In this document: one piece after another, positions 33,032 through 57,495 of the stretch | Layout: the number at the start of each line of letters is the position of its first letter | Numbering within the stretch: the stretch's first letter is position 1 | Assembly (NCBI RefSeq): GCF_009807095.1 | Contig: NZ_WUCC01000003.1 | Location: 310,001-374,000 of the forward strand | Length of the DNA stretch: 64,000 nucleotides | Direction: 5' to 3' | Source: Rathayibacter sp. VKM Ac-2754 | Lineage (GTDB): Bacteria > Actinomycetota > Actinomycetes > Actinomycetales > Microbacteriaceae | Notes under the pieces: model-generated | Told to the model about the DNA's origin: nothing | Seen by the model: only the letters and a program-made list of their open reading frames with translations | Databases searched by the model: none | Translations under genes and position numbers: made by a program

Positions 33032-33038
33032 GCGCGGT

Positions 33039-33488: not shown

Positions 33489-33499
33489 GACGACTCGAC

Positions 33500-34828: not shown

Positions 34829-34889
34829 CCGTGCGCGGGAGCCCTGCATCCGGCACGTAGGCTGTGCTCAGGTTCATCAAGGGGGCGGC

Positions 34890-40080: not shown

Positions 40081-40101
40081 GCACCCACCGGAGTACAACG
40101 A

Positions 40102-42168
40102 ATGACTTTCGAGGAAGCACTGCGCGAGCGCATCGCCCTGAGGGCAGAGGGCTCGTCCTCGTTCGCCGTGCAGGCCTTCGGCGAGGAGCTGGTCGCTCGT
40201 CTTCAAGAGGCTGAAGTCGTCTTCGACGCGACGGTCGAGCCCCTGCGCTGCTCTGGGCGGCGATCGAAGAAGCTCGAGATCCTCGGGTACGCGGAGGACA
40301 CCGCGGACGACTCCCTGGTCGTGATCGTCGGAGCGCACTACGACTCTCCGGGCTCGGTCCTCACGAGGACGGAGGCGCGGAAGATCTTCGGCGCTGGAGA
40401 GGCGTACCTGGAGCACTCGGTCGACGGCTGGCTCTCCGACAACCTCGAGATCAGCTCCCGCGAAGCCGAGTACGCGATCTACTTCAGGGAGAACCTCGCG
40501 AAGTACAACCGCCTGAAGTTCATCCTCGTCACCGATGCGACGCTCAGTTCTCGCGTCACAACGATCGAGGACGAAGTCGTCGCAGGCAAGCCCGCGTCCT
40601 ACTCCATCTGGGACCTCCGGCGATTCGACGAGCTCGCTGCTTCGGAGAGCGGCCGGGACGACATTCGGATCGATCTCACCGAGTGGATGCCGGAGGGGCT
40701 GCCCTGCCTCATCGGGGCGGAGAACGGTGCTGCCGCGACGAGTTACCTGGCAGTACTTCCCGGGCGTCTGCTTGCAGATGCCTTCCAGCGCTACGGCAGC
40801 CAATTGCTCGAGTCCAATGTGCGGACGTTCCTCAGCGCACGCGGGAAGGTCAACAAGGGAATTCAGACCACTCTGGCCGATGAGCCGGACATGTTCCTGG
40901 CCTACAACAACGGGCTCACCACGACAGCCACGGGCGTCACAGTCGAGCAGAGGGAGGGCGCGAACTTCATCACCTCGATCGACAACTGGCAGATCGTGAA
41001 CGGCGGTCAGACGACTTCTTCTCTTGCTCACTTCGTGCGGCAGACGAAGGACCGCTCATTGGAGGGCGTCTTCGTTCAGATGAAGCTCGTGACGGTCGCA
41101 CCTGCTCAAGCAGCCGATCTCGTCGCGAAGGTGTCGCGCTTCGCCAACAGCCAGAACAAGGTCAGCGAGGCCGACTTCTTCTCGAACAGCCCGTTCCACA
41201 TCCGTCTCGAGCAGATCAGCCTTCGCGTGAAGGCGCCCGCACAGGACGGCGTCCAGTTCGGCACCGGGTGGTTCTACGAGAGGACCCGCGGACAGTACGA
41301 GAACACGAAGAATGCGCGGACGGCCGCGGAACAGCGGCGCTTCGAGCTCGAATTCCCCAAGAACCAGGTCGTCACGAAGACGGACTGGGCGAAGTTCGCT
41401 TTCGCCTGGGACCAGAAGCCTCACGAGGTCAGCCGAGGTGCGCAGAGCAACTTCATGGCCTACGCGGTGGAGACCGACCGCCTCTGGGAGCAGTCGGCCG
41501 ATGCGGTGAACGACGAGTACTACCGGCAGAGCGTCGCCAAGGTCATCATGTACAACCGCCTCCGGACCGCCGTCATGCAGTCGGACTGGTACGAGGGCGG
41601 CTATCTCGCGAACATCGTCGCCTATGCGATCTCGAAGTTCGCCTTCGAGCTCGGCCGCAAGATGCCCGATCACCGCTTCGACTTCGATCGGGTGTGGCGC
41701 GAGCAGGCGATCGGCCCTGTCGCCGAGGAAACGCTGCTCACGCTGGCTCGGGCGATGCACGCGGTGCTCACCGATCGCGACCGGCCTCAAGGAAACGTGA
41801 CCCAGTGGGCGAAGCAGAACGCTTGCTGGGACGCCGCGCAGAAGAAGCGGGTCGTCTTGAATCCTGCGCTCGTCGATGAGCTCGTGCCGACCAGCGCGGC
41901 CCACGCCGCGCCGAGCGCCCCGAGCTCGACCACTCCCGCGGGGTCGGTCGTAGAAGCTGTCGCGCGCGTCCTCCGGGTGAAACCGGCTGTCTGGGCAGCG
42001 GTTCTAGGCGAGGGCGTCGAGCGAGGCGTGGTCAGCCCCATCGAGCGCGCTCTCATCGAGCGTCTCGCCGTCCCCGGGACCGTGCCGAGCGAGCGCCAGG
42101 CGGCGCGGGCGCTCGCTGCGCTCGACCGCAGCGCCGAGCACGACCTCGTCGCGACCGACGCCTACTGA
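40102..42168 (+). CDS. AIPR (abortive infection phage resistance) family protein
   Basis: A 688-residue protein. The AIPR core is seen from about residue 230: VRTFLSARGKVNKGI, then FLAYNNGLTTTATG and WQIVNGGQTTSSLAHF, followed by a long helical region. The N-terminal ~150 residues (including VVIVGAHYDSPGSVLTRTEA) probably form the preceding domain. AIPR proteins accompany GHKL-Z1-nuclease modules; their biochemical role is not settled. It is the last gene of the four-gene operon, and its stop lies in the stem of a hairpin shared with the convergent gene. The last ~70 residues (ALIERLAVPGTVPSERQAARALAALD) look like a small helical add-on. Confidence 0.9.
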   Translation: MTFEEALRERIALRAEGSSSFAVQAFGEELVARLQEAEVVFDATVEPLRCSGRRSKKLEILGYAEDTADDSLVVIVGAHYDSPGSVLTRTEARKIFGAGEAYLEHSVDGWLSDNLEISSREAEYAIYFRENLAKYNRLKFILVTDATLSSRVTTIEDEVVAGKPASYSIWDLRRFDELAASESGRDDIRIDLTEWMPEGLPCLIGAENGAAATSYLAVLPGRLLADAFQRYGSQLLESNVRTFLSARGKVNKGIQTTLADEPDMFLAYNNGLTTTATGVTVEQREGANFITSIDNWQIVNGGQTTSSLAHFVRQTKDRSLEGVFVQMKLVTVAPAQAADLVAKVSRFANSQNKVSEADFFSNSPFHIRLEQISLRVKAPAQDGVQFGTGWFYERTRGQYENTKNARTAAEQRRFELEFPKNQVVTKTDWAKFAFAWDQKPHEVSRGAQSNFMAYAVETDRLWEQSADAVNDEYYRQSVAKVIMYNRLRTAVMQSDWYEGGYLANIVAYAISKFAFELGRKMPDHRFDFDRVWREQAIGPVAEETLLTLARAMHAVLTDRDRPQGNVTQWAKQNACWDAAQKKRVVLNPALVDELVPTSAAHAAPSAPSSTTPAGSVVEAVARVLRVKPAVWAAVLGEGVERGVVSPIERALIERLAVPGTVPSERQAARALAALDRSAEHDLVATDAY

Positions 42169-42196
42169 GGACCAATTGCGGGTCGGCGTCCTCAGT
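42164..42196. terminator. hairpin containing both stop codons
   Basis: ACTGAGGAC (42164-42172) pairs perfectly with GTCCTCAGT (42188-42196) across 15 bases. The TGA stops of the AIPR gene and of the convergent regulator-like gene lie inside the two arms. Likely bidirectional terminator. Confidence 0.6.
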
Positions 42197-44297
42197 CGTC
42201 CGCTTGTGCGCGCAGGAGCGCGGCCAGGTCGGCCTCGCCGCGTTCCTCCACGCGCATGAGCAGGTCCGATGCGGAGGCCTCCATATCAAGGCCGACAGCG
42301 ACCGCCAGCGCGCGAGGATCGTCGACGCCCGTCAGCGCGCGGACGTCCTGCGGGTCGTCCACCGCAGCGATGGTGACCTGGTCCCCGACGAATAGGAGAC
42401 GCGCGATGTCGCCGCCGGCGCTGTCGATCGTTGCGAGAGCTGCGCGAAGAGTGCCCATCTGGGGCTGGGTGCCCTCCCATGTCACCGTGACGCCCCAGTC
42501 GTCTCCGTGCCAGCGCTTCCTCTCACCGGGCGCGAGCCCGAGAGCCAGTGCAACTCCCGAGGAGAGCACCGTCCCACTCCCCCGGAGGTGCTCGGCTGTC
42601 ACCTCGAGGCGGAAGGCGACGCCGCCGTCATCGAGGAAGTAGAGGTTCTTCGTGAGGCCGGGCCTCTTCCGGACAGCGGCCCGTCGTTCCGCGAAGCGGA
42701 CGACCCCGCCGCGAGTGACAAAGGGCCAACCTGACGCGTATCCGCGAACACTGCTCGCGGCCACCGAGAGCCTTTGAGGAAGAGCCTCGAGGAGCGAATC
42801 GAGGGCGATGGCGCCGTCGTTGCGCTCGATCTCGGCCGCGATCGCGTCCTTGATGCTCGTGTAGGCCTCCCCGCCCCACTCCACGAGCCCCCAGTCACCG
42901 CGGCCGACGCGCACCAGCCGCTCGTCGAGCGCGAGAGCGTTCCGGATCGACTGCACCGCGCGCTGTCCCTCGAAGGCAGCTTCGATCCAATCGATCGGCC
43001 TCGGCTCACCCTCGTTGCTGAGAAGTGCCACCGTGAGGTCAGGAATCGAGGCACGACGCGTCCGCGCCCAGACATCGCCGATGCGGACGTGACCGAGCAA
43101 CGTCATCCATTCGACGACTCGCTTCTCCGAAAGCCCCGTCCATTCTGCGAAGGACGCGACGACTTCACTGTGCGGGGCGCCTCCGTGCTGGTCGACCAGG
43201 TCGGCGAATCGGGTCTCCGACTCGGCCCGAGCAGCTCCCAGTGACGGGACCGCGAACCATTCGCCATCACCCTCGAAGCCGTCGTCGACTGCGTCCAGAA
43301 CCGCGAGAGCAGTGGTCCCATCAACATCGACAGACTCCAGGACTCCGGGGACCTCAGCGAGCGTCTCGATGTGCGAGAGCGATCCGATCCGCGATCTCAC
43401 TGCGGCCGCTCGGAAGGCCAGCGCTTCGTCGCGCTCGAGCCAGGTGGACAGCGAGTCCCGCACCTTGCTCTCGATCTGCCTCACGCGCTCGCGCGTCACG
43501 CCGAGCCGCTCGCCGAGCTGGTCCAGTGTCGCCCGCCGACCTTGAACATGCCGCTCCAGAAGGATAATCCGCCTCCGCTCGTCGAGGTCGGCAAGGTGGA
43601 CTCCGATCTGCTGTGCAAGAGAAGCGGCCTCGGCACCCGTCCCGATCCAGTCATCGGACGTCAGCGAGTCGAGCAGACTCCACGCCTCGATGACGGCGAG
43701 CGGCGCCGAGCCTGCGTCTCGCGGCGCGGAGAGCAGAGGAGCCGCACCCTGACCGAGAGCCTGATTCCAGGAGGACACAACCTGCACCGCGTCGAGCAGC
43801 CTCGACCGCGGCGTCGCGTCCGCCGCTCGACGGAGGCGCCGGGAAGTAGCCTGCGTTTCTGCGACCGGCTCGGTCGACGAGCCGACCGAGCTGAGCGCCT
43901 CCCCGACCAGCCAGGCCAGCAGGTCCGTCACACTCCGGGCACCCATGCCGCGGAGCACCATCACACCCCGTACTCGCAGCGGAGCGAGCGACTCGAAGTC
44001 GGTCAGCGCTTCCCGAAGCAGTACGTTCCGGAGTCGCACGCTCTGCACTCGATCGGGCACATCCCTGCTGCGCACGGTCGGGAACAGCTCGCGCATGGTC
44101 GACGAGCTGCGGTATTCGACGATGTGCTCGACGATGGCGGCCCGAGCCGCTGGATCATCGGGAGCGGCAGCGACCAGCAGCGATCGCAGCTCGGCCCTGT
44201 CAGCGGTGGCGTGCCCCTCGAGCCACGGGAATGCGCGACTCCAGACGGCCGGCAGAACCGTCTCGTAGTCGAAGTCCTCGTTCGCGCTCCCGGCCAT
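42192..44297 (-). CDS. large putative transcription regulator: alpha-CTD-like, sigma region-4-like and winged-helix segments
   Basis: A 701-residue protein with no family I can name as a whole. About residues 100-135 (LRVRGVMVLRGMGARSVTDLLAWL) resemble the RNA polymerase alpha C-terminal helix-hairpin-helix. About 240-290 (RRRIILLERHVQGRRATLDQLG, then ERLGVTRERVRQIESKV) is an unmistakable sigma region-4 HTH. About 430-560 contain two HARE/winged-helix-like segments (LLSNEGEPRPIDWIEAAF; EIERNDGAIALDSLLEALP). The C-terminal 130 residues are an unassigned alpha/beta domain. It is convergent with the AIPR operon. ATG has GAGGGGG upstream. GC (about 68% in a sampled line) lies between island and backbone. 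A regulator of the defence island is the simplest inference. Confidence 0.75.
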   Translation of the reverse strand: MAGSANEDFDYETVLPAVWSRAFPWLEGHATADRAELRSLLVAAAPDDPAARAAIVEHIVEYRSSSTMRELFPTVRSRDVPDRVQSVRLRNVLLREALTDFESLAPLRVRGVMVLRGMGARSVTDLLAWLVGEALSSVGSSTEPVAETQATSRRLRRAADATPRSRLLDAVQVVSSWNQALGQGAAPLLSAPRDAGSAPLAVIEAWSLLDSLTSDDWIGTGAEAASLAQQIGVHLADLDERRRIILLERHVQGRRATLDQLGERLGVTRERVRQIESKVRDSLSTWLERDEALAFRAAAVRSRIGSLSHIETLAEVPGVLESVDVDGTTALAVLDAVDDGFEGDGEWFAVPSLGAARAESETRFADLVDQHGGAPHSEVVASFAEWTGLSEKRVVEWMTLLGHVRIGDVWARTRRASIPDLTVALLSNEGEPRPIDWIEAAFEGQRAVQSIRNALALDERLVRVGRGDWGLVEWGGEAYTSIKDAIAAEIERNDGAIALDSLLEALPQRLSVAASSVRGYASGWPFVTRGGVVRFAERRAAVRKRPGLTKNLYFLDDGGVAFRLEVTAEHLRGSGTVLSSGVALALGLAPGERKRWHGDDWGVTVTWEGTQPQMGTLRAALATIDSAGGDIARLLFVGDQVTIAAVDDPQDVRALTGVDDPRALAVAVGLDMEASASDLLMRVEERGEADLAALLRAQADD

Positions 44298-44375
44298 CGG
44301 GGCCCCCTCTCAGCTCAGCCATTCTCGCCCGGACGACCGACAAATGTCGTGCGGCAGGCGCTCCCGTTCTCGCGG

Positions 44376-45227
44376 TCAGGAGGCGCAAGCGAGGAGGATC
44401 GTCTCAGCGGCGGCCCGGTCCGCTTCACCGACACCCAATCCGTATGCGCTCACCACCCCCACGAACTGCTCCACATACCCGCACCGCAGCTCCCGCTCCG
44501 GCGGCAGCCACTCCCCCGGCCCGGCGTCGCTCTTCGACTGGTTCGTCTCCTCCGAGGCCGCGACGAGGTTCGCCGGGTCGTTCGCGAACATCAGGCGCTG
44601 CTCGTCCGTCCATGCCCAAGCCCCGTGGTGCCAGGCCCAGCCGAGGGCGACGACGTGGTCGATCTGCACCAGGCGCGAGGTGTCGGAGCCGGAGACGAAG
44701 GAGACGGCGGTGCCGTCGTAGGGGTCGATCAGGGTGCCCGAGAGGACCTTGCAGTCGCGGGTGCCGGGCTTGAACACCGGGTCGAGGAGGTCGCGGCCGA
44801 GGATGTCGTTGCGGGTGTCGCAGCCGTTGCGGTCGATGTCGGACCAGGCCTGGCCGAACAGGTCGCGGTCGTAGGGCAGGTCGGCGAAGCCGTCGTCGGT
44901 CGGGATCGCGGCGAGGGCGGCGAGCGCGGAGGCAGCGGGTCCGTCGGCAGGAGGGTCCGTCGGTGATGCGGCAGGCGAAGCGGATGGCGAAGCGACAGGC
45001 GAAGCGGACGCCGAGACGACAGGCGCGGGAGACGCCGCGACCGGCCCACCGACCGTCTCCTCCACTCCCACCACCGCGAACGCGACAGCGACGGCCCCCA
45101 CCGCCGCGACAACGAACGCCCACCACGGCGTACGCCGACGCACGCCACGCGCCGGCACACCACCCCGAAGCACCGGAGGCGCCACCCGCCGCGGCGCTTC
45201 CGGTCGCGGCGGCGGAGGTGCTCCCAC
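44376..45227 (-). CDS. membrane-tethered HNH endonuclease (DUF1524/GmrSD-type C-terminal fold)
   Basis: A 283-residue protein: a Pro/Arg-rich cytosolic N terminus, one TM helix at about 35-58 (WWAFVVAAVGAVAVAFAVVG), a Ser/Pro/Ala linker, then an HNH nuclease domain with IDHVVALGWAWHHGAW, FANDPANLVAASEETNQSKSD and GEWLPP. His of DHV and the downstream Asn/Lys residues form the expected metal site. The nuclease domain should face outside, as in exported actinobacterial HNH nucleases. GTG at 45227 begins 2 bases after the stop of the two-TM protein, making this the last gene of the tubulin-like/vWA operon. Cys residues (NGCDTR, RDCKVL, LRCGYV, LLACAS) fit an oxidised compartment. Confidence 0.85.
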   Translation of the reverse strand: MGAPPPPRPEAPRRVAPPVLRGGVPARGVRRRTPWWAFVVAAVGAVAVAFAVVGVEETVGGPVAASPAPVVSASASPVASPSASPAASPTDPPADGPAASALAALAAIPTDDGFADLPYDRDLFGQAWSDIDRNGCDTRNDILGRDLLDPVFKPGTRDCKVLSGTLIDPYDGTAVSFVSGSDTSRLVQIDHVVALGWAWHHGAWAWTDEQRLMFANDPANLVAASEETNQSKSDAGPGEWLPPERELRCGYVEQFVGVVSAYGLGVGEADRAAAETILLACAS

Positions 45228-45229
45228 CG

Positions 45230-48200
45230 CTAGACCCCCGAGTCGCCCTCGGGCGCGACGACCGGCGCCGCCACCGAGCGCGCCCCGTCCCACAGCCGGA
45301 TCGCCGCGCGCGGCACCGGCCCGACGACGTCCACGCGCCACACCAGGTCCACCGGCGCACCCGTCGCGCCCTCGTACGGCACCACATGGATCGGCGCCGA
45401 CGGGTCGAACCGCAGCCGCTCCTGCAGCCGCGACGGCGCGACGAGGAAGCTCGTCACGCGCTCGTGGTACCGCTCCCCCACCTGCAGCTCCGTGAGCACC
45501 GTCGCGCTCACCGGCGTCATCGGGTCGGCGCGGGTCAGCGACTCGAGCAGGAAGTCGTCCCACGGGAGGTCGAGCTCGACGCCGTCGTAGTCCTCGGGGC
45601 GGCGGAGGGCGTTCAGAGGGTTCACGCCCATCGGGCGCACGCGCGGGCGGGCGATCGACTCCTCGTCGCGCTGCACGGAGGCGACGATGTCGGCCAGGCG
45701 CGGGGCGGCGATCCGCGTGAGCAGGGACTCGTCGTCCAACGCTCGCAACAGCATCCGCCGGGTGTGGTTGGACGAGTGCGGGAGGTCCTCGTCCAGCGCC
45801 GAGAGGCCGAAGCCCTGGCCCGCTCCGTAGTCGGCGGCCATCTCCTGCACGAGGGCCTCGAAGGCCTCGTGGCGCCAGCCGCGGCGGACCAGCTTCGACG
45901 TCATCGCGGCGCGCATGCGGGCGACGGCGGCGGTCTCCTCGCCGCTGACGGTGGCGAGGCGCACGGCGAAGGGCATGTGGCCGCGCTCGACGTCGAAGGT
46001 CTCGTGCTGCGTCCACACGGGCGGCACGTGCCACGGCCGGTGGATCGCCTTCGACAGCAGCACCAGCCAGTCCACGGCCTGGCGGTGCACCGAGCGGAGG
46101 CGCGCGGCCTCCTCGCGGGCGCGCCGGGCACTCGCTCCGTAGTGGGCGAGGCGGGTGCGCTCGACCTCGATGCGGCGCTCGAAGCGCGACCAGCCGGAGT
46201 GGTAGCGCACGAGCGAGACCAGAGTGATGAGCAGCGCGGCGCCTCCGAGGCCCACGAGCATCCACGAGAGCAGCGAGGTCAGGATGCGCGGATCGAACGA
46301 GTCGGTGCGCGTCGCGTAGTCGTTGACGAACCAGATGCCGACGCCGACGGCGAGCGCCAGGGCGACGACAGTGACCCAGCCGACGAGCATCGAGCGGTGG
46401 AAGTCGCGGCGCAGCGCCAGCAGCTCCCCCGCGCGCTGGGGGCGGATCGCGTCGATCTCGCCGACCAGGTACGCGACCTCGTCCTCGGCGCGGCGGCGCT
46501 CGGCGCCGATCCGGTCGAGGAAGCGCCAGACGAACGACGAGCTCTGCGCGCCGGCCCAGAGGTCGTACTCGGCGAGCGCCTGCAGACGGCCGGAGCGGCG
46601 CGCCTCGGGGTCGACGGGCGGCGCGACGGGCTCCTCCGCCGGCAGCTCGATCTGCACGACGGGGCGCTCCGGCTCCGCATCCGGCTCGACCAGCGACTCC
46701 TGAGCGGGCGGGTCGAATGCGGGAGGCTCCTCCACAGCGACGGGATCCTCCACAGCGACCGGCGCGGGCACCTCCGCGGCGACCGACGCCTCCGACGCCG
46801 TCACCCAGTTCTGCAGCTTCACTCGCGGATCCTCGAGCGCCAGCGCATACCAGTCCACCCGAGAAGGGAACCCGGGCGGCACGTCGTGCGCGCCCGCCTC
46901 CCACGGCCCGTCGGGCAGCGCGAGCACGTCGCCCACGCGCCCGAAGACGGGCACCGCGCCCTCGACGGGCACGAAGCCCGCGTCGCGCAGGTCGGCGCTG
47001 CCGTCGAGCGCGCCGAAGACGAGCTCGCGGAGTCCGGCCCACAGCTGCGGTGTCGTGCGCACGTGCGCCATCGCGGCGGGCGCCCCTGCCTCGGCCCGCG
47101 CGCGGCCCTCGTCGTCGCGGAGGCGCTCGAGGTCGGCGAGCAGCAGGCGGTCGCGCACATCCAGCACCTCGTCGAGCTGCGAGCCGACCACGGCCGAGCC
47201 CTCGGCGGTGTGCAGCGCGCGGGTCATTGAGCGGTTGGCGCTCGACGAGAGCCAGCGGGCGCTCCAGCGCGGCATCTGCACGAGCTTGCCGGCCGAGAAC
47301 GAGAAGAAGCGGCCGATCTGCGCGAAGAAGCCGATCCGAGAAGGCTCGGGCACGTCGAGCGCGCCTGCGGAGTCGTAGGTGAGCGCTCCGCCGTCCAGGC
47401 GCAGCGCCCCCTCGACCATCCCGTCGACGTAGCCGGCGATCTGGCCGTCCTCGATGAAGGCGGTGCCGGGGGGCGGCGGGCTGACGCTGGGGTCGATCAG
47501 CAGGGAGTCGGGGCGGGCCGCGTTCTCGAGGACGCCGGCGGCGACGCGGCGGCCGAGCGACTCCGTCAGCACCGCGTTGAGGAACACGCGCGAGATCCAG
47601 ACGGAGTCGCCGCCGTCGCTCTCGCGGCTCATCAGCTCGACGCTGCCGTCGGTCACGCCGTTCCACAGCCCCGCGACGCTGGCCAGATGGGTCAGCGTGA
47701 AGCCGGTGAAGCGCTCGTCGTCGCGCACGAACGCGTCGCCCGACCAGGGGCTCGAGCGGTCCTCGGGCGAGGCGATCACGATGAAGCCGTGCTCGTGCGC
47801 CTCCACGCGCTCGCGCAGCTGGAAGGCCGTGGGCGCGCAGATCAGGGTGACCCGGCGCAGCTCGGTTGTCTGGTCGGCGAGGGTCGCGGAGGGGTTCGGC
47901 AGCGGCATCGAGGTGCGCACCCAGCGGCTCACCAGCTCGGCGACCGCGTCCTGCGCGGCGTCGGTCTGGCGCTCGGGCAGAGCCGAGCGGAGGGTGACCA
48001 GCCGCACCAGGGCGAGCTGCTCCTCCGCCAGCGCCTCGAAGAGGTCGACCGAGATCGCGACCGACTCGAGGTCGGCGCCCACCCCGAGCACGACGGCCTC
48101 GATCTGCGGAGGCGCGTACTCGGAGGTCTTCACGTGCTCGGGCAGCACCCAGAGCGCCTGGCCGAGGAGGCCGGTCTTCGTCCACTGCGCGGCGAGCTCG

Positions 48201-48295
48201 AGCAGGGTCTCGCCCTGCGCGCCGCTGGGCAGCAGGACGATCGCCGCCTTGCCGTCGGGCCAGAAGCCGTCCGAGCGGGAGTCTTCGGAAGGCAC
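45230..48295 (-). CDS. large two-TM protein of the tubulin-like operon, function unknown
   Basis: A 1021-residue protein without a recognised family. It begins with an alpha/beta region (KAAIVLLPSGAQGETLLELAA). An acidic Pro/Val/Glu-rich linker precedes a charged helical stretch and two TM helices at about 637-657 (LVGWVTVVALALAVGVGIWF) and 670-693 (SLLSWMLVGLGGAALLITLVSL). A long, probably coiled-coil segment follows (FERRIEVERTRLAHYGASARRAREEAARL), then a soluble C-terminal domain. No Walker motif was found. GTG at 48295 is 2 bases after the tubulin-like gene's stop, with GGAG 8 bases upstream. It probably links the GTPase to the membrane. Confidence 0.75.
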   Translation of the reverse strand: MPSEDSRSDGFWPDGKAAIVLLPSGAQGETLLELAAQWTKTGLLGQALWVLPEHVKTSEYAPPQIEAVVLGVGADLESVAISVDLFEALAEEQLALVRLVTLRSALPERQTDAAQDAVAELVSRWVRTSMPLPNPSATLADQTTELRRVTLICAPTAFQLRERVEAHEHGFIVIASPEDRSSPWSGDAFVRDDERFTGFTLTHLASVAGLWNGVTDGSVELMSRESDGGDSVWISRVFLNAVLTESLGRRVAAGVLENAARPDSLLIDPSVSPPPPGTAFIEDGQIAGYVDGMVEGALRLDGGALTYDSAGALDVPEPSRIGFFAQIGRFFSFSAGKLVQMPRWSARWLSSSANRSMTRALHTAEGSAVVGSQLDEVLDVRDRLLLADLERLRDDEGRARAEAGAPAAMAHVRTTPQLWAGLRELVFGALDGSADLRDAGFVPVEGAVPVFGRVGDVLALPDGPWEAGAHDVPPGFPSRVDWYALALEDPRVKLQNWVTASEASVAAEVPAPVAVEDPVAVEEPPAFDPPAQESLVEPDAEPERPVVQIELPAEEPVAPPVDPEARRSGRLQALAEYDLWAGAQSSSFVWRFLDRIGAERRRAEDEVAYLVGEIDAIRPQRAGELLALRRDFHRSMLVGWVTVVALALAVGVGIWFVNDYATRTDSFDPRILTSLLSWMLVGLGGAALLITLVSLVRYHSGWSRFERRIEVERTRLAHYGASARRAREEAARLRSVHRQAVDWLVLLSKAIHRPWHVPPVWTQHETFDVERGHMPFAVRLATVSGEETAAVARMRAAMTSKLVRRGWRHEAFEALVQEMAADYGAGQGFGLSALDEDLPHSSNHTRRMLLRALDDESLLTRIAAPRLADIVASVQRDEESIARPRVRPMGVNPLNALRRPEDYDGVELDLPWDDFLLESLTRADPMTPVSATVLTELQVGERYHERVTSFLVAPSRLQERLRFDPSAPIHVVPYEGATGAPVDLVWRVDVVGPVPRAAIRLWDGARSVAAPVVAPEGDSGV

Positions 48296-48297
48296 GC

Positions 48298-51200
48298 TCA
48301 CACTCCGGTGTCCCGGGGACCGGTCGACAGCACCGACGACACGAGCGCGCGGATCGCGTCCTGGAACTGCTCCCGCATCTCCCACGTCACGGGGTAGTCG
48401 TAGACCGACACCATCTCGTCCTGCTGCACGATCTCGCTGTCGAAGCGGGCGAGCTCGTTCGAGAGGTAGGCCTGCACGGCGGCGCGGCGCGAGGCGAGGT
48501 CGCCGTCGGCCGAGCCGGCGCGGGACGCCTCCGGGACCGGTGCGCCGGTGGGCAGCGACCCGGTCTGCAGCCACTCGGCCAGCTCGGTCTCCTCGCCGCG
48601 GCTGCCGCCGAGCGAGGTGAGCACGCGGTAGGCGGCGAGCGGGGCGAGGGTGCCCTCGACGTTGCAGAGCGCCATCGCGATGGCGAGCGACTGCAGCACG
48701 ACGCCCGGGAAGTCCGCCGGGCGGGCGTTCCGCTCGCTGAGCAGCGGGTGCGGGAAGTCGGCGAAGCCGCGGGTCGACGGGTCCCAGACCGAGAGCTTCG
48801 GGCCCTTCTCGCCCTGCGTCGAGTCGACGGCGAGACGGCCGAGGGCCTTGGCGACGTACCAGCCGCGGATCATCGACTCGATGGCGCGGGGATCGGCGGG
48901 GATGCTCTCGCCGAGCAGGCGCGCGCGCTTGAACTTCCAGAAGGCCTCGCGGCTGTCCTGGGTGTTCGACTGCGCGAGCCAGCCGCGGGCGATGGGCTCC
49001 ATCACCGAGTCCATCACGATCGGCTGGTACGGGAAGCCCGACATCGCGAAGACCTCGATGCCGTCGACCTTCTGGTCCTGGAACCACGACTCGCTGGTCG
49101 CGTCGTCCCAGACGCCCATCTGGCCGAGCACGCCCTTGGTCACCTCGTACATCTCGGTGCCCTGGCGGAACGGGATCGAGCTGAAGACGAGCGAGGTGTC
49201 CTGGTTGATCGCCTTGCCGTGCACGGCGCGCAGCAGTGCGGGGTTCAGCTTCACCAGCGGCTCACTCGCGCCGAGGGCGGCCTGGAGCTGCTCGCGGTAG
49301 CGGTCGCGGCGCGCGGCGAACACGTCCGGCGGCAGGATCTCCCTGTCGAAGAAGCCGAGCAGGTCCTCGCCGATGTAGGCGGCGAACGGGGTGCCGTCGC
49401 GCTTCATCCACGCGCGGGCCCGGGCGACGTAGGTCTCGGGGTCGGTGGCGAGCTCGAAGGAGGCGCGCTGCGCCGGGTTCGCGACGGCCGGGTCGGCGGT
49501 CACGGTGGGCTTCCACGTGCGCGGGTTGCCGACGAGCGACCAGGCGCCCGCCTCCGACTCGGTGTCGGGGCTCACGCCGACGAGCTGGTCGGTGATGACC
49601 CGCAGCACGGCGTCCTGGTACTTGGCGTCGCCGTCGACCGAGGCGCGCACCAGCTTCTGGAACTCGCCGGGGTACTTCTCGGGCTCGATCAGCATCCGCT
49701 CGTTGGGCGCCGAGATGTACTTGCGCGGCACGGTGTCGTCGACGCGGCGCGGCCAGAACTCGTAGGCGTTCTCGCGGTCGTCGCTCGTCTTGCGCGAGTG
49801 CACGCGCTGCAGCAGCGCAGTGCGGGAGCCGTCGAGGTAGTCGGCGAGCGGGCCGAGGAAGGTCTCGCGGAGCTCGGCGAGCAGGGCCCACGCGGAGTCG
49901 CGCAGCGCCGCCTCCGACGACCACTCGAGCGCCTGCCCGAGCCGCTGGATCGCGAACTGCACCGCCTCCTGATCGGGGCGGATCGACTGCTGGTTGGCCG
50001 AGGTGCGCAGCTCGTCGGACACGAGCGAGCTCAGCGTGCCCACCCACTCCTCGTGCTGGCGGGCCTCGACGCGCAGCGCGTCGACGGTGCCCTTGAGGCC
50101 GCGCTCGAGGCGGCGGAGCATCGCGACGACCACGGGGAGGCCGTCCTGCGCCACGTAGCGCGAGACGGTCTCGAGGATGTGGCCGGGCATCGTGCGGGTC
50201 CACTCGTCGAGGCGCTGCTGGCGGGCCTCGCGATCGCGGTGCAGGAGGCGGGGGCTCGCCCGGGTGTACTCGTTGACCAGGCGGTCGGTCCACGTGGTGA
50301 TGTCGGTGCCGCCCTGGCGGTCGAGCGACTCGGGGCGGCTGAGCTCGTCGTCGGCGGTGCGCTGCAGCTCGGACTTGATCAGGTCGAGGGTCGCGGTGTC
50401 GCGCAGCGCGTCGGTGACGTCGTTGTGCTCGGCGGTCTCCTCGTTCAGCCGCAGCTCGCGGAGGAAGCGCTGGTACTCGCTGTCGGCCGACTTCTCGATG
50501 TACTCGCGCTCGGTCATCCGCTCGAACTGCGGGTCCTCCTCCGCGTGGGCGTAGAGCATCCGGTCGATCGCCGAGCGGGCGAAGCGCTCGGCCGAGTACT
50601 CGAGGAACCGCTCGCGGCCGAGGGTGACGCGGCCGAAGCCGATCGAGGAGAAGGGCGGCGAGTGGTGCGCGGGGCTCATGAGCCCTGAGTTGTCGGGCAG
50701 CACGTTCGCGGCCGAGCGGGCCTGCCAGTTGCCCGAGGAGTAGGCGATCATGTCGTCCTGCACGCGCTCGTCGATCATCCACGCGGTGAGGCTGGTGGCG
50801 ACCGCGTCGTAGACGGCGTTCTGGTCCTCGAAGGTGACCTTGCTGTTGCTGCGGCCGATGATGAACGGGTACGCGGCACCGACGCGGTCCATCGCGGCTC
50901 CGTACGAGGGCGCGACGCCCTTGGTGCGCAGGAGCTCGAGGGTCGCGGGCGACGGAGTGTCGGTCCAGAAGCCGTTCATCGTCTCGGAGATCGAGGCGAG
51001 CGCGTTGCCGGGCATGCCGGCGGTCACGTTCAGCTGGTCGAAGACGTCGGGCGCGTAGAGCATGCTGAAGAACTGGTTCGACCACGGGTACTGCTTGGCG
51101 GTCGACTTGACGATCTCGATCACGTCGAGGAACTGGCCCGCTCCCGAGCCGCCGGCGACCGACGAGATGACGATGACGATCGGGCTGCCGTCTCCGCCGT

Positions 51201-51699
51201 CGTCGCGGGCGTTCAGGCGCGCACCGAGCGTCTGCAGCTCGGCGAGCGCCTCCGCGTCGTTCATGCGGCCGATGGCGGTGCGCGCGGCCTGAGCGATCTC
51301 CTTCGTCGCGGCGAGCGCGACGGCGCGGCCGACCGCGCGGTACTGGCCGGCGCCCTTGGTCACGTCGACCTTCACCAGCCGCGGGTCGGGCAGCTGGCGC
51401 TCGATGTCGTGGCGCATCGCGTTGTTGGTCGCGTGCGCGCTCGTGATCGAGCCGTGCACGATGTCGAACGTCGCCGCGGTGCTGACGAGCCCGCGGTAGT
51501 CCTGCCGGGGCAGGAACGGCGCCTGGTACTCCATGCCGTCCTGGACGGTGGGGGTGTCGAAGTGCAGGAAGCGCCAGGCGGCGGGGATGCCGCCCTCCCA
51601 GCCGAGCTGCTGGAGCTTGAGCTCGAGCTGGTACTTGATGCCGCGGAGGGTCTTGCCGCCGGAGCCGCCGACTCCGATGAGGAGGAAGGGTTTGAGCAT
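48298..51699 (-). CDS. tubulin/FtsZ-like GTPase (Tubulin_2-type), 1133 aa
   Basis: A very long cytosolic protein whose N terminus (MLKPFLLIGVGGSGGKTLRGIKY) is the nucleotide-binding loop 1 of tubulin-like GTPases. The tubulin signature equivalent SSVAGGSGAGQFLDVIEIV lies near residues 177-195 (GGSGAG standing for GGGTGTG). Later segments (FSMLYAPDVFD, NAVYDAVATSLTAWM) fit the same fold. The C-terminal ~700 residues are mainly helical and unassigned. Related long FtsZ-like proteins sit beside vWA membrane proteins in diverse bacteria and have been proposed to remodel membranes. ATG at 51699 has GGAGGAAGG about 10 bases upstream. It is the third gene of the five-gene operon. Confidence 0.88.
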   Translation of the reverse strand: MLKPFLLIGVGGSGGKTLRGIKYQLELKLQQLGWEGGIPAAWRFLHFDTPTVQDGMEYQAPFLPRQDYRGLVSTAATFDIVHGSITSAHATNNAMRHDIERQLPDPRLVKVDVTKGAGQYRAVGRAVALAATKEIAQAARTAIGRMNDAEALAELQTLGARLNARDDGGDGSPIVIVISSVAGGSGAGQFLDVIEIVKSTAKQYPWSNQFFSMLYAPDVFDQLNVTAGMPGNALASISETMNGFWTDTPSPATLELLRTKGVAPSYGAAMDRVGAAYPFIIGRSNSKVTFEDQNAVYDAVATSLTAWMIDERVQDDMIAYSSGNWQARSAANVLPDNSGLMSPAHHSPPFSSIGFGRVTLGRERFLEYSAERFARSAIDRMLYAHAEEDPQFERMTEREYIEKSADSEYQRFLRELRLNEETAEHNDVTDALRDTATLDLIKSELQRTADDELSRPESLDRQGGTDITTWTDRLVNEYTRASPRLLHRDREARQQRLDEWTRTMPGHILETVSRYVAQDGLPVVVAMLRRLERGLKGTVDALRVEARQHEEWVGTLSSLVSDELRTSANQQSIRPDQEAVQFAIQRLGQALEWSSEAALRDSAWALLAELRETFLGPLADYLDGSRTALLQRVHSRKTSDDRENAYEFWPRRVDDTVPRKYISAPNERMLIEPEKYPGEFQKLVRASVDGDAKYQDAVLRVITDQLVGVSPDTESEAGAWSLVGNPRTWKPTVTADPAVANPAQRASFELATDPETYVARARAWMKRDGTPFAAYIGEDLLGFFDREILPPDVFAARRDRYREQLQAALGASEPLVKLNPALLRAVHGKAINQDTSLVFSSIPFRQGTEMYEVTKGVLGQMGVWDDATSESWFQDQKVDGIEVFAMSGFPYQPIVMDSVMEPIARGWLAQSNTQDSREAFWKFKRARLLGESIPADPRAIESMIRGWYVAKALGRLAVDSTQGEKGPKLSVWDPSTRGFADFPHPLLSERNARPADFPGVVLQSLAIAMALCNVEGTLAPLAAYRVLTSLGGSRGEETELAEWLQTGSLPTGAPVPEASRAGSADGDLASRRAAVQAYLSNELARFDSEIVQQDEMVSVYDYPVTWEMREQFQDAIRALVSSVLSTGPRDTGV

Positions 51700-51750
51700 G
51701 ACTGTCTGCTTTCGTCGTGTCGCGAGTCGAGGCGCTGAGTGGAGTCGCTG

Positions 51751-54489
51751 TCAGCGACCGCGGGGCGGAGGGGTTCGAGGGCCGGATCGGCCGGGCGGCG
51801 GGGGCGGTGTCGCGCCTCCGGGGCGGGGTGGGGGCGGTGAGCTCGGGCGGCCGGGGGCGCCTCCGGATCGCGGAGGCGGGGTGCCGGGGCGCGGGGGCGA
51901 GGTCGGGCGGGACGGGACGGACGGGGCACTCGCGCGGGCGGGCGCACCGTCGCGCGGGGCGGGGCGCTGCGGCTCCGGGGGCTCGGGTCGCCTCGCCGCG
52001 CGCTCGCGACGCAGCGTGTCGACGGTGACCCACGCGGGGGCTCCGGAGTCGCGGAGCAGGTCGTCGAGGCGACGGTCGTACTGGCCCTCGTCGTCGCGGT
52101 CGACGCGGTGGTAGAGCACGGCGGTCGCGCGGACGGGGTCGTCGCCGCGCGGCCGGTCGAGCTCCTGCTCGGGGACGACGAGCGCCCAGAAGGCGTCGAG
52201 CGGGAGCGACGTGAACTCGGCGTGACCGGCCACGAGCTTCGCGGAGGACGACTTCCGTGTGCCGGTCCGTGAGGCGACGACGACGCCTCCCGCGGGCGGG
52301 CCCACCCGGTAGCTCGGTGCCTTGAGCGGCCACCACGGCACGTGCGCGCGCAGCCGCCCCAGCTCGGGATCGGCGAGCTCGCGCACACCGGTCTCGCTGC
52401 GGAGGTAGCGGAAGCGCTCGTCGAGGCGGGTCGCGGTCGGCGCCGCACGCACCCCCTCCGGCGTGATCTCGACCGGGATCGTGCCGCGCTGGAACGAGCC
52501 CACCATCGCGATGCGCGTGTTGCGGCGGTTGAAGAGCCAGAGCAGCAGGAGCGGGAGGAGCACGCCGAGCAGGAGCAGCACGAGCGAGACCAGCCCGATC
52601 GCGGCCGCGTTGACCGGGAACGTCGAGGGGAAGGAGAGCGCGATCGTCTGCGGCGCGCTGCTGCCGGCCGCGGTGCGGATGTCGAGCGGGAGGGTCGCGG
52701 TGACGGAGGAGTCGGCGGCGACGGCGTTCTCGGCGGTCACGGCGAGCGTGCGGGTCGCGCCCTGGGAGACGGTCACGCACGCCCCCGGCGCGAGGGCCGC
52801 ACCGGTGTCGTCGGTGAAGGTCCAGGCCCAGGAGTCCGCGCGGTCGGCGTTGTCGCTCGTCACGGTCGGCGGCTCGGCGAGGCAGACCTGGCCGTCGCCT
52901 CCCGCGGTCGGCCCCTGGATCGCGAGGGTCCCCTCCGCTCGCCCCTCGGACCCGGTGAGCTCGGAGAGCACGACCGGCGACGAGACGCTGGGGAACGAGG
53001 CCGGGAGCACGGTGGTGACGGTCTGCTGCGTCGTGACGGGCGCGAGCGCGACCTGGTGCGGCGCGGTCGTCAGCGGCTCGACGGAGGCGGTGACGAGGAT
53101 CTCGGAGGCCGTCACGTCGGCGGGCAGCGGCACGGTGATCGCTCCGGTGGCCTCGTCGATGCGGGCGTCGGGCAGCGCGGTCGTGCTGCCGTCGGCGGTG
53201 GCGGTCGCGGTGAAGACGGCCTGGTCGAAGACCGACAGGTCGGCGGGCGAGCCGTCGGCGTTCTCCACGCGGGCGGTGAGGCTGGCCGCGAGCGAGCCGT
53301 CGTCGCCGCGCTCGACCTGGTTCGCCTCGTCGAAGACGATGCGGAGATCGGAGAAGTAGAAGACGCTGTCGGCGCCGGTGAGGGTCCACTGGCCCTGCAG
53401 CTCGGGGCGGTCGACGGTCAGCTCGACGAGCTGCGCGCCGGAGGAGCCGCTGACCTGCACCTCGGGCGAGGTCGCGGACAGGGTGCCGAGACCCGAGCCG
53501 GCCGGCGGGGTGAGGGTCCACGCCGGATCCGTGACGACGGCCTGGATCCGCGAGACGCCGCCGTCGATCCAGAAGGTGCCGTCGGCCGCGAGGCCCTGCT
53601 GGGCTCCGCCGCCGATGCGGGCGCCGAGCTCGAGGAACACCGACGCGAGCGCCGCGGGGTCGGAGGCGTCGACCACGGCGCCGCGGACGGAGCCCTCGGG
53701 GGCCGTCGCGGGCCCGCAGGTGGCGGTGCCGCCTCCGTAGGCGCCGCTGCCCTCGACCAGCGGCCACATGACCCTCGCCTCCTCCCGCTGCTCGCCGTCG
53801 GCCAGGAGTGTGCCGATCACGACGACTCCGGCCTGGCGGAGCGCGGCGAGCACGCCGAAGCCGCCCGGCTCGTCACCGTCGGGGTCGATGCGCGCGCCGC
53901 AGAGGGCGTTGGTGGCGTCGGCGGTGGCCTGCGCCGAGCCGAGGTCGATCTCGCCGTCGGTCAGCCAGATGACGAGCTGGCAGGCGGAGCCGGCGCTCGG
54001 CTGGCTCTGCAGCGCCGACTGGACTCCCTGCAGGCCGGCGAGCCAGTTGGTGCCTCCGCCGGGCGTCTTGGCGCGGATGGTGTCGGCGAGCGCGGCCGGG
54101 CTGTCGCCGGTCCACTGCTGCCAGTCGACGGCGGGCTCGAAGGCGCGGCTGAAGAACGCGGCGCCCCAGTTGACCGTGAGGTCGTCGCGGAGGCCGCCGA
54201 GCTCGGCGAGGCTGCCCGCGAGGATGTCGGCGCGCGCGACATCCGGGTCGGAGCCGCGACCGTCGTCGCCGCCGGTGTTCAGCGATCCGGAGTTGTCGAC
54301 GAGGTAGTAGACGTTGAGGACGTCGGAGGAGGAGAGGCAGGTGCGGAGGTCCTCGATCGCGCCGCGACCGATGTCGGTGAGCGAGGCGGTCGGGGCGGTG
54401 GTCGTGGTGGTGGCCGCTTGTGCAGCGGCTCCGAAGCCCAGGACGAGGAGGAGCGCGGTGACGACGACCGCGAGCGCGCGGCGGATCAC
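51751..54489 (-). CDS. vWA-domain membrane protein
   Basis: A 912-residue exported protein. The signal peptide (VIRRALAVVVTALLLVLGFGAAAQA) is followed by a von Willebrand A domain at about 45-270 with MIDAS residues in YYLVDNSGSLN, GGGTNW and IWLTDGEID. Beta-sandwich repeats cover about 280-610. A TM helix at about 624-651 (NAAAIGLVSLVLLLLGVLLP) leads to a cytosolic domain and a long Pro/Arg-rich disordered tail from about 840. The external vWA can bind ligands through a divalent metal while the tail can reach cytosolic partners. GTG at 54489 overlaps the upstream stop (GTGA). 51 bases separate it from the tubulin-like gene. Confidence 0.88.
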   Translation of the reverse strand: MIRRALAVVVTALLLVLGFGAAAQAATTTTTAPTASLTDIGRGAIEDLRTCLSSSDVLNVYYLVDNSGSLNTGGDDGRGSDPDVARADILAGSLAELGGLRDDLTVNWGAAFFSRAFEPAVDWQQWTGDSPAALADTIRAKTPGGGTNWLAGLQGVQSALQSQPSAGSACQLVIWLTDGEIDLGSAQATADATNALCGARIDPDGDEPGGFGVLAALRQAGVVVIGTLLADGEQREEARVMWPLVEGSGAYGGGTATCGPATAPEGSVRGAVVDASDPAALASVFLELGARIGGGAQQGLAADGTFWIDGGVSRIQAVVTDPAWTLTPPAGSGLGTLSATSPEVQVSGSSGAQLVELTVDRPELQGQWTLTGADSVFYFSDLRIVFDEANQVERGDDGSLAASLTARVENADGSPADLSVFDQAVFTATATADGSTTALPDARIDEATGAITVPLPADVTASEILVTASVEPLTTAPHQVALAPVTTQQTVTTVLPASFPSVSSPVVLSELTGSEGRAEGTLAIQGPTAGGDGQVCLAEPPTVTSDNADRADSWAWTFTDDTGAALAPGACVTVSQGATRTLAVTAENAVAADSSVTATLPLDIRTAAGSSAPQTIALSFPSTFPVNAAAIGLVSLVLLLLGVLLPLLLLWLFNRRNTRIAMVGSFQRGTIPVEITPEGVRAAPTATRLDERFRYLRSETGVRELADPELGRLRAHVPWWPLKAPSYRVGPPAGGVVVASRTGTRKSSSAKLVAGHAEFTSLPLDAFWALVVPEQELDRPRGDDPVRATAVLYHRVDRDDEGQYDRRLDDLLRDSGAPAWVTVDTLRRERAARRPEPPEPQRPAPRDGAPARASAPSVPSRPTSPPRPGTPPPRSGGAPGRPSSPPPPRPGGATPPPPPGRSGPRTPPPRGR

Positions 54490-54890
54490 AGGCCGAGCCA
54501 GTCGGACACGGGGACGCTGATGTTGAGGATGTGCCACGCGCCGAGGACGAGGGCGGCGCCCGAGAGCCAGAGCAGCCAGCGGGTGAGGCGCGGGTCGGGC
54601 GCGAAGTGCCGGGCGTCGCGGAGGGAGTTCGCGCGCTGGGAGGAGAGGTCCCAGCCGGCCGCGAGGAAGACGAGCAGCGGAGTGAGCAGGTAGCCGACGA
54701 CGCTCATCCAGACGGCGCCGCCGCGCACCAGGGGCAGCGGGACGCCGAGCACGCGGACCGGCGCGGCGGCCGTCGACGCGGCCAGGATCGCCAGCGCGAG
54801 GCTCACCAGAAGACCCGCCACGCCCAGCCAGAGAGGCAGGGCGCTGGCGGTCCGGCGGGCGGCGGGGGCCCGGTTGCGCACGGTCGACAC
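54486..54890 (-). CDS. small membrane protein, first gene of the tubulin-like operon
   Basis: A 134-residue protein with three TM segments (ALPLWLGVAGLLVSLALAILAAS; GAVWMSVVGYLLTPLLVFLAAGW; LLWLSGAALVLGAWHIL) separated by a charged loop (DLSSQRANSLRDARHFAPDPR). GTG at 54890 was chosen because GGAGGG lies 8-10 bases upstream; GTG at 54881 is possible. The stop overlaps the vWA start (GTGA), implying stoichiometric expression. No family recognised; probably a membrane partner of the vWA protein. Confidence 0.72.
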   Translation of the reverse strand: MSTVRNRAPAARRTASALPLWLGVAGLLVSLALAILAASTAAAPVRVLGVPLPLVRGGAVWMSVVGYLLTPLLVFLAAGWDLSSQRANSLRDARHFAPDPRLTRWLLWLSGAALVLGAWHILNISVPVSDWLGL

Positions 54891-56157: not shown

Positions 56158-57495
56158 ATGGATGAAGCAGATGGGACAGGGACGGCGGAGGCGCGACTCG
56201 GCGCGATCGCCGCGCTGACCGGGCTCGCCGCGCGCGCGGGGTTCGCGTCGGCGCAGCTGCTGTTCGCGAGGGCCTGCGCCCTGCACGGGGCCTACCGGAC
56301 GGGTCTCACGATCCCGGAGTCGTTCGCACGCGGCGGCCGCCTCTCGCGCAGCGAAACGCACGAACTCGTCGAGCGCTCCCTCCGCGCCGAGCTCGCCGTC
56401 GGCGCGGGGATGACGGAGCGGGCCGTGACGCGGACCCTCGAGCTGGCCCAGCTGCTGATCGAGGACCTGCCTCGCACCCGCGCCGCTCTGGCCGAGGGGC
56501 GACTGCTGTGGGAGGCGAGCACGGTCATCTGCGACGCCGCCGCCACCCTTCCCGCCGCGGCCCGGGCCGCTCTGGACGAGCGCGCACTCGAGGCGGCCCT
56601 GACGAAGAACCCGACCCAGCTGCGGCGGGCCGTCGCGCGGATGCGGGACGAGCTGCACGACGAGCCGCTGGCCGTGCGGCACGTCCGCGCCCGCAAGGAC
56701 CGGGGCGTGTGGGTCTCGCCGGAGGTCGACGGGATGGCCACCCTCTGCGCGCTGCTGCCCGCACCCGCCGCGATGGGCGCCTACCACCGCCTCGACCGCA
56801 TCGCCCGCACCCTCCGCGACGGCGCCGACGACGAGCCGGGCGACGAGCGCACGCTCGCGCAGCTTCGGGCCGACGCGCTCGCCGACCTGCTCTGCGACGG
56901 GGACATCGCCGGCACCACCCCGCCCGGCGACGGCCCGAGCACCCCGCCGACCTTCGTCCCCGGGGTGCGCGCGGAGGTGCGCCTGACGCTCGCCGCGAGC
57001 ACCGCCTCCGGGGCCGACGACGCCCCGGCCGACCTCGACGGCTACGGCCTCGTCCCCGCCGACGTGGCCCGCGAGCTCGTGGGCGTCGGCGCCTCGTTCA
57101 CCCGGATCCTCACCGACCCCGCCACCGGCGCGGTCGCCTCCGTCGGGCGCACCCACCGCGTCCCACCCCCGCGGATGCGCCTCCACCTGCAGCTGCGCGA
57201 CCGGACCTGCCGCTTCCCCGGCTGCACCCGCCCCGCCTCCACCGCCGAAGCCGACCACACCCTCGAATGGCGCAACGGCGGCCACACCGCCCTCGACAAC
57301 CTCGCCTCGCTCTGCACGAGCCACCACCACGTCCGCCACGGCGACCGCTGGACCTACCGCCTCCACCCCGACGGCACCACCGACTGGACCACCCCCACCG
57401 GACGACGCGTCACCACCCACCCACCCGCCCTCCCCGGACGACCACCGGAGCCACCCCCACGACCGCGGTTCGTCGACACCCCGCCACCGTTCTGA
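56158..57495 (+). CDS. DUF222 domain HNH endonuclease
   Basis: A 445-residue protein with an N-terminal helical DUF222 domain (about 1-330) and a C-terminal HNH nuclease at about 350-395: CRFPGC, then EADHTLEWRNGGHTALDNLASLC and HHHVRH, including the metal-binding CxxC/C cysteines and the D-H-N triad. This family is multicopy in actinobacteria; the role is uncertain, and mobile-element-like or intron-like behaviour has been suggested. A Pro-rich tail follows. No Shine-Dalgarno is visible; AATACT lies 7 bases before the ATG, suggesting a leaderless mRNA. The palindromic repeat array begins 56 bases after the stop. Confidence 0.9.
   Translation: MDEADGTGTAEARLGAIAALTGLAARAGFASAQLLFARACALHGAYRTGLTIPESFARGGRLSRSETHELVERSLRAELAVGAGMTERAVTRTLELAQLLIEDLPRTRAALAEGRLLWEASTVICDAAATLPAAARAALDERALEAALTKNPTQLRRAVARMRDELHDEPLAVRHVRARKDRGVWVSPEVDGMATLCALLPAPAAMGAYHRLDRIARTLRDGADDEPGDERTLAQLRADALADLLCDGDIAGTTPPGDGPSTPPTFVPGVRAEVRLTLAASTASGADDAPADLDGYGLVPADVARELVGVGASFTRILTDPATGAVASVGRTHRVPPPRMRLHLQLRDRTCRFPGCTRPASTAEADHTLEWRNGGHTALDNLASLCTSHHHVRHGDRWTYRLHPDGTTDWTTPTGRRVTTHPPALPGRPPEPPPRPRFVDTPPPF

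Follow-up and report, generated by a model that had tools for sequence, protein, structure and literature searches.

A membrane-associated tubulin-family operon of actinobacteria with a probable second, degenerate tubulin fold and a recurrently linked nuclease

Introduction

In the window, the whole 64,000-nucleotide stretch of Rathayibacter DNA analysed here, five adjacent genes encode a small membrane protein (SMALL), a vWA protein (VWA), a Tubulin_2/FtsZl1 protein (TUB), a membrane-anchored protein that is probably a second, degenerate tubulin (TM2) and a GmrSD_C/HNH nuclease (HNH). The operon represents a GAP1-free, often nuclease-linked branch of a known system, and this branch, termed type A below, is new. 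For the operon as a whole we favour, at only a little short of an even chance, a membrane-embedded two-tubulin machine operating as an envelope conflict (defence) system with a surface nuclease, its function being putative. The architecture that we tentatively propose is a hetero-tubulin with a transmembrane (TM) hairpin partner and a lineage-specific tail code, one branch of which would often carry an outward-facing, DNA-screening nuclease. The operon had been picked out in a first-pass annotation made from the sequence alone; the observation holds, and its interest exceeds what was claimed there.

Operon Layout and Protein Components

The genes lie on the minus strand in the order SMALL, VWA, TUB, TM2 and HNH, from 54890 down to 44376 (Table 1), and all five open reading frames were found where the first pass had placed them. 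The spacing is as tight as had been claimed: VWA overlaps SMALL by 4 bases (GTGA), and gaps of 51, 2 and 2 bases separate VWA from TUB, TUB from TM2 and TM2 from HNH; an alternative TM2 start at 48301 would overlap TUB. The claim of a single predicted promoter was not borne out by a sigma-70 scan, itself poorly suited to high-GC actinobacteria, which yielded 0 candidates (mean of 0.1 in shuffled sequences).

Table 1. Positions of the operon genes and their main features in the window.
Feature	Position	Strand	Basis
SMALL, first gene; small membrane protein of 134 aa	54486..54890	-	ORF
VWA, predicted exported vWA protein; one TM segment, a cytosolic portion and a Pro-rich tail	51751..54489	-	ORF, Pfam, hydropathy
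vWA domain, predicted outside	53950..54309	-	PF13519 match at residues 62-181, below cut-off
VWA Pro-rich C-tail, predicted cytosolic, end PPPRGR	51754..51930	-	sequence, alignment
TUB, Tubulin_2/FtsZl1 protein, 1133 aa	48298..51699	-	PF13809
TUB T1 loop GVGGSGG	51655..51675	-	conserved in alignment
TUB T4 loop AGGSGAG (tubulin signature position)	51136..51156	-	conserved in alignment
TUB C-terminal tail, DTGV before the stop	48301..48312	-	matches TM2 tail
TM2, membrane-anchored (1021 aa); degenerate tubulin fold predicted, interrupted by a long insert	45230..48295	-	model
TM2 predicted transmembrane hairpin, residues 636-696	46208..46390	-	hydropathy; sits between the model's two fold parts
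TM2 C-terminal tail, DSGV before the stop	45233..45244	-	in stretch with pLDDT < 50
HNH, predicted membrane-tethered GmrSD_C/HNH nuclease, 283 aa	44376..45227	-	PF07510, 5.2e-13
HNH Pro-rich N-tail, predicted cytosolic (GAPPPPRPEAPRR)	45120..45227	-	sequence
HNH nuclease domain, predicted outside	44442..44819	-	PF07510 on residues 137-262

The earlier view of an operon whose products span the envelope is supported by the topologies predicted for VWA, TM2, HNH and SMALL from hydropathy and flanking charges. SMALL is predicted to carry two strong TM segments and perhaps a third; it yielded no named family in the profile searches made, and an HMM match to it occurs 5' of VWA in most type-A loci. 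VWA is predicted to start with a signal peptide, to expose its vWA part on the outside, to cross the membrane once at about residues 632-650 and to end in a Pro-rich tail in the cytosol. Its match to PF13519 (1.1e-4) falls below the curated cut-off, and the MIDAS residues D66, S68, S70, T148 and D179 (DxSxS, T, D) are invariant across 21 aligned sequences. TM2 is predicted to form an N-in/C-in hairpin, and HNH to have a cytosolic Pro-rich N-tail, a TM segment at residues 37-55 and its nuclease domain outside.

TUB matches the PF13809 (Tubulin_2) profile with an E-value of 5.3e-39 and 134.9 bits, well above the curated cut-off of 27. This profile match, the Gly-rich T1 and T4 nucleotide loops and the vWA gene in the operon together place TUB in the FtsZl1 family, and the kinship with FtsZl1/vWA systems (Makarova and Koonin 2010) pointed out in the first pass is thereby supported. 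This tubulin-family protein is predicted to reside in the cytosol; both of its nucleotide loops are intact, and its filament formation and GTPase activity are putative. Sequence searches of the PDB with TUB, TM2 and HNH gave no meaningful relative. In a search for carriage by phages and plasmids, no phage record matched and two Rhodococcus megaplasmids matched at 25% identity.

Distribution and Two Operon Types

The loci named here are the best 80 of 148 from one scan, together with further loci, all annotated by HMM. A vWA-TUB-TM2 core is common to two operon types, A and B, across the actinobacteria, and a TM2 match adjoins TUB in all annotated TUB loci except L019, L020 and L067. The gene order recurs across genera, which is more than chance.

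Type B operons show the order small protein, VWA, TUB, TM2, X, GAP1, Z and GTPase, and occur in, for example, Mycobacterium, Rhodococcus, Gordonia, Corynebacterium, Arthrobacter and Propioniferax. Pfam matches in their representatives are to GAP1-N2 (PF20013/PF20014), GAP1-M and DO-GTPase2 (PF19993), and TerD-like genes occur near 13 type-B loci. A control genome of Corynebacterium glutamicum matches both PF13809 and GAP1-N2 and so probably has a type-B locus as well. Type A operons consist of SMALL, VWA, TUB and TM2, with no X-GAP1-Z-GTPase gene matched in the loci; genera include Rathayibacter, Clavibacter, Microbacterium, Subtercola, Cellulosimicrobium, Georgenia and Occultella, of which the first two contain plant pathogens. 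In the TUB tree, where type A means that no X or GAP1 match lies in the available stretch, 35 type-A rows stand apart (support 87, or 99 with one Acidimicrobiia row), two of them (L035 and L060), which end inside TM2, being typed by tree position only. On the other side are 50 rows, comprising type B and two cut loci (support 99).

The absence of GAP1-N2 extends beyond the loci: it was found genome-wide in none of 29 type-A genomes, against 3/3 type-B controls, and the genome of the window has none. Within the genus it occurs in 2/15 genomes, the two with a type-B TUB, and in G203, which has both types, it lies beside the type-B copy. DO-GTPase was not detected in the type-A loci, which were searched with a home-made HMM from three type-B proteins.

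Among the 15 Rathayibacter genomes, nine carry PF13809 and eight TM2. The HNH query matches in 9/15, seven of them at at least 75% identity and beside the operon, and in the eighth TM2-bearing genome the contig ends within TM2 (L035). A LacI-type neighbour, typed by eye, occurs in those eight TM2 genomes plus one, and since it is co-distributed in this way the operon appears largely to follow one vertical subclade, so that co-occurrence within the genus is not independent. More widely, PF13809 is present in 10/199 genomes of the family sample, and TUB matches occur in 21/396 genomes of an order-level sample. Neighbourhoods were covered for 19 of these 21 (G357 and G450 were left out); nine of the 19 are type A, five of which (G000, G106, G242, G412 and G327) were already in the earlier set, and HNH lies within the examined stretch in seven of the nine, the exceptions being G327, with no HNH in that stretch, and G241, on a short contig.

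TM2 as a Probable Second Tubulin

The first-pass annotation described a 1021-aa protein with two TM segments, and the hairpin is indeed predicted; the protein is, however, probably a second tubulin fold with decayed nucleotide loops, a split fold carrying the membrane hairpin, which was not visible without tools. This rests on a structural model; profile searches gave TM2 no named family and no similarity to tubulin or to TUB. When the model was compared with known folds, the top 16 rows were tubulin or microtubule entries, followed by FtsZ, and their lead over the highest-scoring small GTPase reached 3.7 Z units. It extends over model residues 15-1013 against tubulin residues 1-403, takes in both N- and C-terminal parts and has a layout resembling that of TUB itself, such that the predicted fold would place TM2 in the tubulin superfamily. 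It would be a degenerate member, since a GGGTGS-like T4 signature is absent and the position reads ICAPTxFQL or other.

Sequence-level homology between TM2 and TUB gained no significant support: hhalign gave a probability of 0.3 for the whole alignments and a best P of about 0.04 for domain pairs, and for the N-terminal 50 residues 52 of 100 column shuffles were equally high, not above controls. This lack of sequence signal, together with the decayed loops, an rmsd of about 5 A and a shallow alignment of 32 sequences, would suit the reading that TM2 is not a tubulin and that the match reflects a chance arrangement of an alpha/beta domain and a small C-terminal sheet. We consider that somewhat unlikely, given that tubulins and FtsZ head the comparison, ahead of the small GTPases, and that the match covers both ends of the protein in a TUB-like layout.

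Among the PDB rows of the fold comparison that gave the TUB layout are 2btq, 5o09 and 9f6v, which we take to be the BtubA/B and Asgard AtubA/B tubulin heterodimers. BtubA/B and AtubA/B each comprise two tubulin-fold partners encoded together and are not known to include a membrane protein bearing a long insert; TM2 differs from them in its decayed nucleotide loops and predicted TM hairpin.

Matching C-Terminal Tails of TUB and TM2

TUB and TM2 from one locus tend to be alike in their five C-terminal residues, as exemplified by DTGV/DSGV, REFL/REFL and LDDTF/LDETF. In a first set of 40 hand-chosen representatives, the 17 of type A gave a mean BLOSUM sum of 10.18, against 0.68 (sd 1.73) for shuffled pairings with 0/5000 as high, and the 23 of type B gave 4.26, against 1.83 (sd 0.89) with 22/5000 as high. 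The control stretch from -10 to -6 showed no signal in this set (3156 and 2876 of 5000), and pairs of TUB or TM2 with VWA, X, GAP1 or Z gave no comparable signal, the strongest being TM2-Z (241/5000). Twelve further loci, several of them congeners of earlier loci or of each other, yielded 8.08 against -3.23 (sd 1.89; 0/20000 as high), with the control stretch somewhat raised (208/20000). L138, L140 and L143, from genomes already used, and two loci with a cut TM2 were left out of this second set. With near-copies included, 87 TUB-TM2 pairs average 6.52, as compared with -4.46 for 740 other adjacent same-strand pairs, and sums of at least 8 are reached by 46% of the former and 3.4% of the latter. 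Tail sums of zero or below were obtained for L050, L051, L055, L069, L071, L072, L073, L084, L093, L102 and L114 in the first set and for L145, L150 and L153 in the further one.

The possibility that the match is a by-product at the DNA level, with a ribosome-binding site in the last codons, was rejected. The codons, compared over 26 loci, differ between genes and lineages, which places the match at the protein level, and the TM2 tail is kept where no gene closely follows. Because VWA, TUB and TM2 are shared by types A and B, the receptor for the tails is probably one of these three or a housekeeping protein. Type-B TUB tails (e.g., L092 and L089) often end in a [VI]P[DE]GGxF-like peptide, presumably reminiscent of the FtsZ C-terminal peptide.

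The Linked HNH Nuclease

PF07510 is the sole Pfam match of HNH above cut-off. The coupling of such a nuclease to the tubulin operon, singled out in the first pass as the new element, is genuine, but it is common rather than obligatory and its position varies. A linked HNH occurs in 19 of the 35 type-A rows of the TUB tree, as against 3/48 type-B rows, where it is divergent, in Williamsia, and beside TerD. Of the 16 type-A rows without one, three (L035, L051 and L060) come from loci truncated by the end of a contig. Second copies of genomes (L041, L046, L052, L066, L024, L025 and L026) were left out of the count, and L022, L023 and L027 were not entered in the tree, which places G116 and G045, both with HNH, outside it. 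Homologues of TUB are thus not consistently without TM2 and HNH, the outcome named in the first pass as telling against the unit: TM2 is nearly always beside TUB, and HNH is linked in the above proportion.

Linked genes are found 3' on the same strand, 5' divergent and 5' on the same strand. Seventeen lines have HNH directly 3' of TM2, two of them (L028 and L052) from a single genome; measured from the TM2 stop, the earliest HNH start falls between -1 and +14 nt in 16 of these lines and at +74 in L029. A greater distance separates TM2 from the HNH of L043 and from the second L032 copy, and in L018 the HNH gene, as called, overlaps TM2 by 32 nt. Linkage requires seven gains or losses on the TUB tree and at least three forced changes on the nuclease tree. 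In the latter, 26 linked and 19 unlinked rows, the unlinked being 18 hand-picked among the PF07510 matches listed plus L034, need four changes against 14.7 in shuffles. The window HNH falls within a 12-row clade of linked rows only (100/99), the Rathayibacter/Clavibacter/Microbacterium/G106 group, and further linked groups lie outside it; the linked nucleases come from several nuclease lineages.

PPP occurs in the N-tail before the TM segment in 11 linked loci by script and, by eye, in four more (the window, L028, L031 and L052, L028 and L052 being one genome), and in 0/18 of the hand-picked unlinked nucleases among the matches listed. It was not seen in the linked L018, L020, L029, L049, L053, L055, L056, L062, L072, L075 and L090. 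A PPP-type motif like that of the HNH N-tail often closes the VWA C-tail, a likeness that is suggestive only, since the motif is of low complexity.

Nucleases of this kind are common, with PF07510 present in 148/199 family genomes, and HNH might therefore be a neighbour by chance or island traffic, unconnected to the tubulin machine. The 16 type-A rows with no linked copy would agree with this, as would L043, whose nuclease groups with an unlinked one from the same genus, so that this linkage may be incidental. We nevertheless regard such a chance association as improbable. The 63 PF07510 matches in 32 genomes amount to about two copies per genome, from which rough arithmetic puts chance linkage within a 23-kb neighbourhood at roughly 1%. 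Moreover, the 12-row clade is wholly TUB-linked, judged against 18 hand-picked unlinked rows, the nuclease starts near the TM2 stop across genera, linkage recurs in differing positions, and PPP N-tails distinguish many linked nucleases from the unlinked ones.

At L020 (G009), the Tubulin_2 protein is a distant one, and at some 2.4 kb from it the opposite strand encodes a PF07510 nuclease.

Comparison with Known Systems and Proposed Mode of Action

The operon's nearest kin in the literature is the tubulin theme described for actinobacteria among the GAP1-N2 systems, GTPase-centric systems which are classed as conflict systems in the cited passages of Kaur et al. 2020 (PMC7159879). As described there, the theme combines one tubulin with a helical region and a membrane-bound vWA protein, with predicted action near the membrane, and the window operon has both of these components; the type-B loci agree with this theme, and a TM2 homologue is likewise present in these GAP1-N2-bearing loci. 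Type A differs in lacking GAP1-N2 (0/29 genomes) and X or GTPase (loci), and in the outward nuclease that is often linked. TM2, its predicted tubulin fold and the tail match do not figure in those passages (PMC7159879). Conflict or defence is favoured over DNA uptake because of this relationship, which bears out one part of the functional guess made in the first pass, while its other part, DNA uptake or delivery, has gained no support of its own.

Membrane remodelling was proposed for the FtsZl1/vWA operons by Makarova and Koonin 2010 (PMC2875224), whose reply to a reviewer, in the part cited, adds that FtsZl1 seems to be without some filament elements. Those operons share with ours PF13809, a vWA partner with MIDAS and a membrane-linked setting; no nuclease is named in the cited parts of that paper, and in the TUB model, unlike the FtsZl1 description there, the tubulin-matching residues lie far downstream, past a helical insert. 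A housekeeping machine for membrane remodelling or vesicle formation, with the surface nuclease only scavenging or clearing external DNA, would accord with that proposal; the two-tubulin, membrane-anchored anatomy predicted here would suit a force or scaffold role, and the core persists with no linked HNH in many lineages. We judge this somewhat unlikely, since the patchy presence (10/199 family genomes with PF13809) and the repeated linkage to one nuclease type look accessory, and the GAP1/DO-GTPase kin are classed, in the passages cited above, as conflict systems.

The remaining alternative is a competence-like machine for DNA uptake, in which the outside nuclease would process DNA for import. 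Competence nucleases provide a precedent, a membrane nuclease on the outside being compatible with DNA uptake. A pilin- or DNA-channel-like match was named by the Pfam and profile searches in none of the five proteins, the type-A neighbours were inspected by eye or length, and the kin belong to conflict systems as far as the cited description goes; we consider uptake very improbable.

SNIPE (Saxton et al. 2026, PMC13190303) is described in the cited passages as a membrane-bound nuclease acting on phage DNA during injection, and resembles HNH in working at the envelope. In SNIPE, however, the nuclease lies in the cytosol and belongs to a different family, GIY-YIG with DUF4041, neither of which Pfam found above cut-off in HNH, and SNIPE therefore serves as the nearest analogy for an envelope nuclease and not as a system to which the operon belongs; the window HNH is a GmrSD_C/HNH protein, predicted to lie outside and tied to a tubulin operon. 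PADLOC 2.0 gave no clear model match for the five proteins, the only one being PD-T4-6 at 0.0094 on HNH residues 27-100.

For the favoured reading of a defence machine in the envelope, we consider it probable that TUB and TM2 assemble with one another at the cytosolic side of the membrane, in the manner of alpha/beta-type tubulin pairs, and that a single site receives both of their matching C-tails. Outside, the vWA ectodomain may sense or adhere, its Pro-rich tail lying inside, and HNH would be tethered in the opposite orientation, with a similar Pro-rich tail inside and the catalytic domain outside. These tails could bring the vWA protein and the nuclease to the cytosolic scaffold, whose nucleotide-driven assembly would most likely place or activate the surface nuclease, and the target would be DNA crossing or lying at the envelope, outside the membrane.

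If this is correct, bacteria possess paired tubulins of which one is anchored in the membrane by a segment of its own, an arrangement of which we found no report in the open-access literature. The short tail code would offer a handle on FtsZl1-type tubulin assembly, which the cited parts of the 2010 paper (PMC2875224) left open, and the GAP1-free, nuclease-linked branch would represent, on a small and testable scale, a conflict system that is predicted to be large.

Genomic Surroundings

An insert of about 11.7 kb (32720-44400) adjoins the operon on the far side of HNH and carries the MZA-like genes B, C, D and E together with a sigma-like gene and a Dcm methylase. An MZA-like anti-phage island occupies positions 34815-44297, with matches to MzaB, MzaC, MzaD and MzaE at E-values of 1e-18 to 1e-116, all below the NCBI curated cut-offs, and its divergent sigma-like gene resembles MzaA over a short stretch only. 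The Dcm-type cytosine methylase (33067-34426; TIGR00675, 9.9e-36) lies in the same insert beside a frame that, by eye, resembles a Vsr very-short-patch endonuclease. The island was rejected as a part of the tubulin system: the insert is strain-specific, and in two close relatives (L028 and L031) only about 1.7 kb separates the same flanking matches. Its content suggests a site at which defence genes are acquired; this accords with a defence role of the operon and does not prove one.

TerD domains are encoded beside type-B operons at L077:3411-5303 and L075:5922-6500, in L077 as part of a fusion with an RNase_T exonuclease and a BRCT domain. Just upstream of the window operon, at 56158-57495, is a gene whose product belongs to DUF222 (PF02720, 1.1e-25) and also has an HNH match below the threshold.
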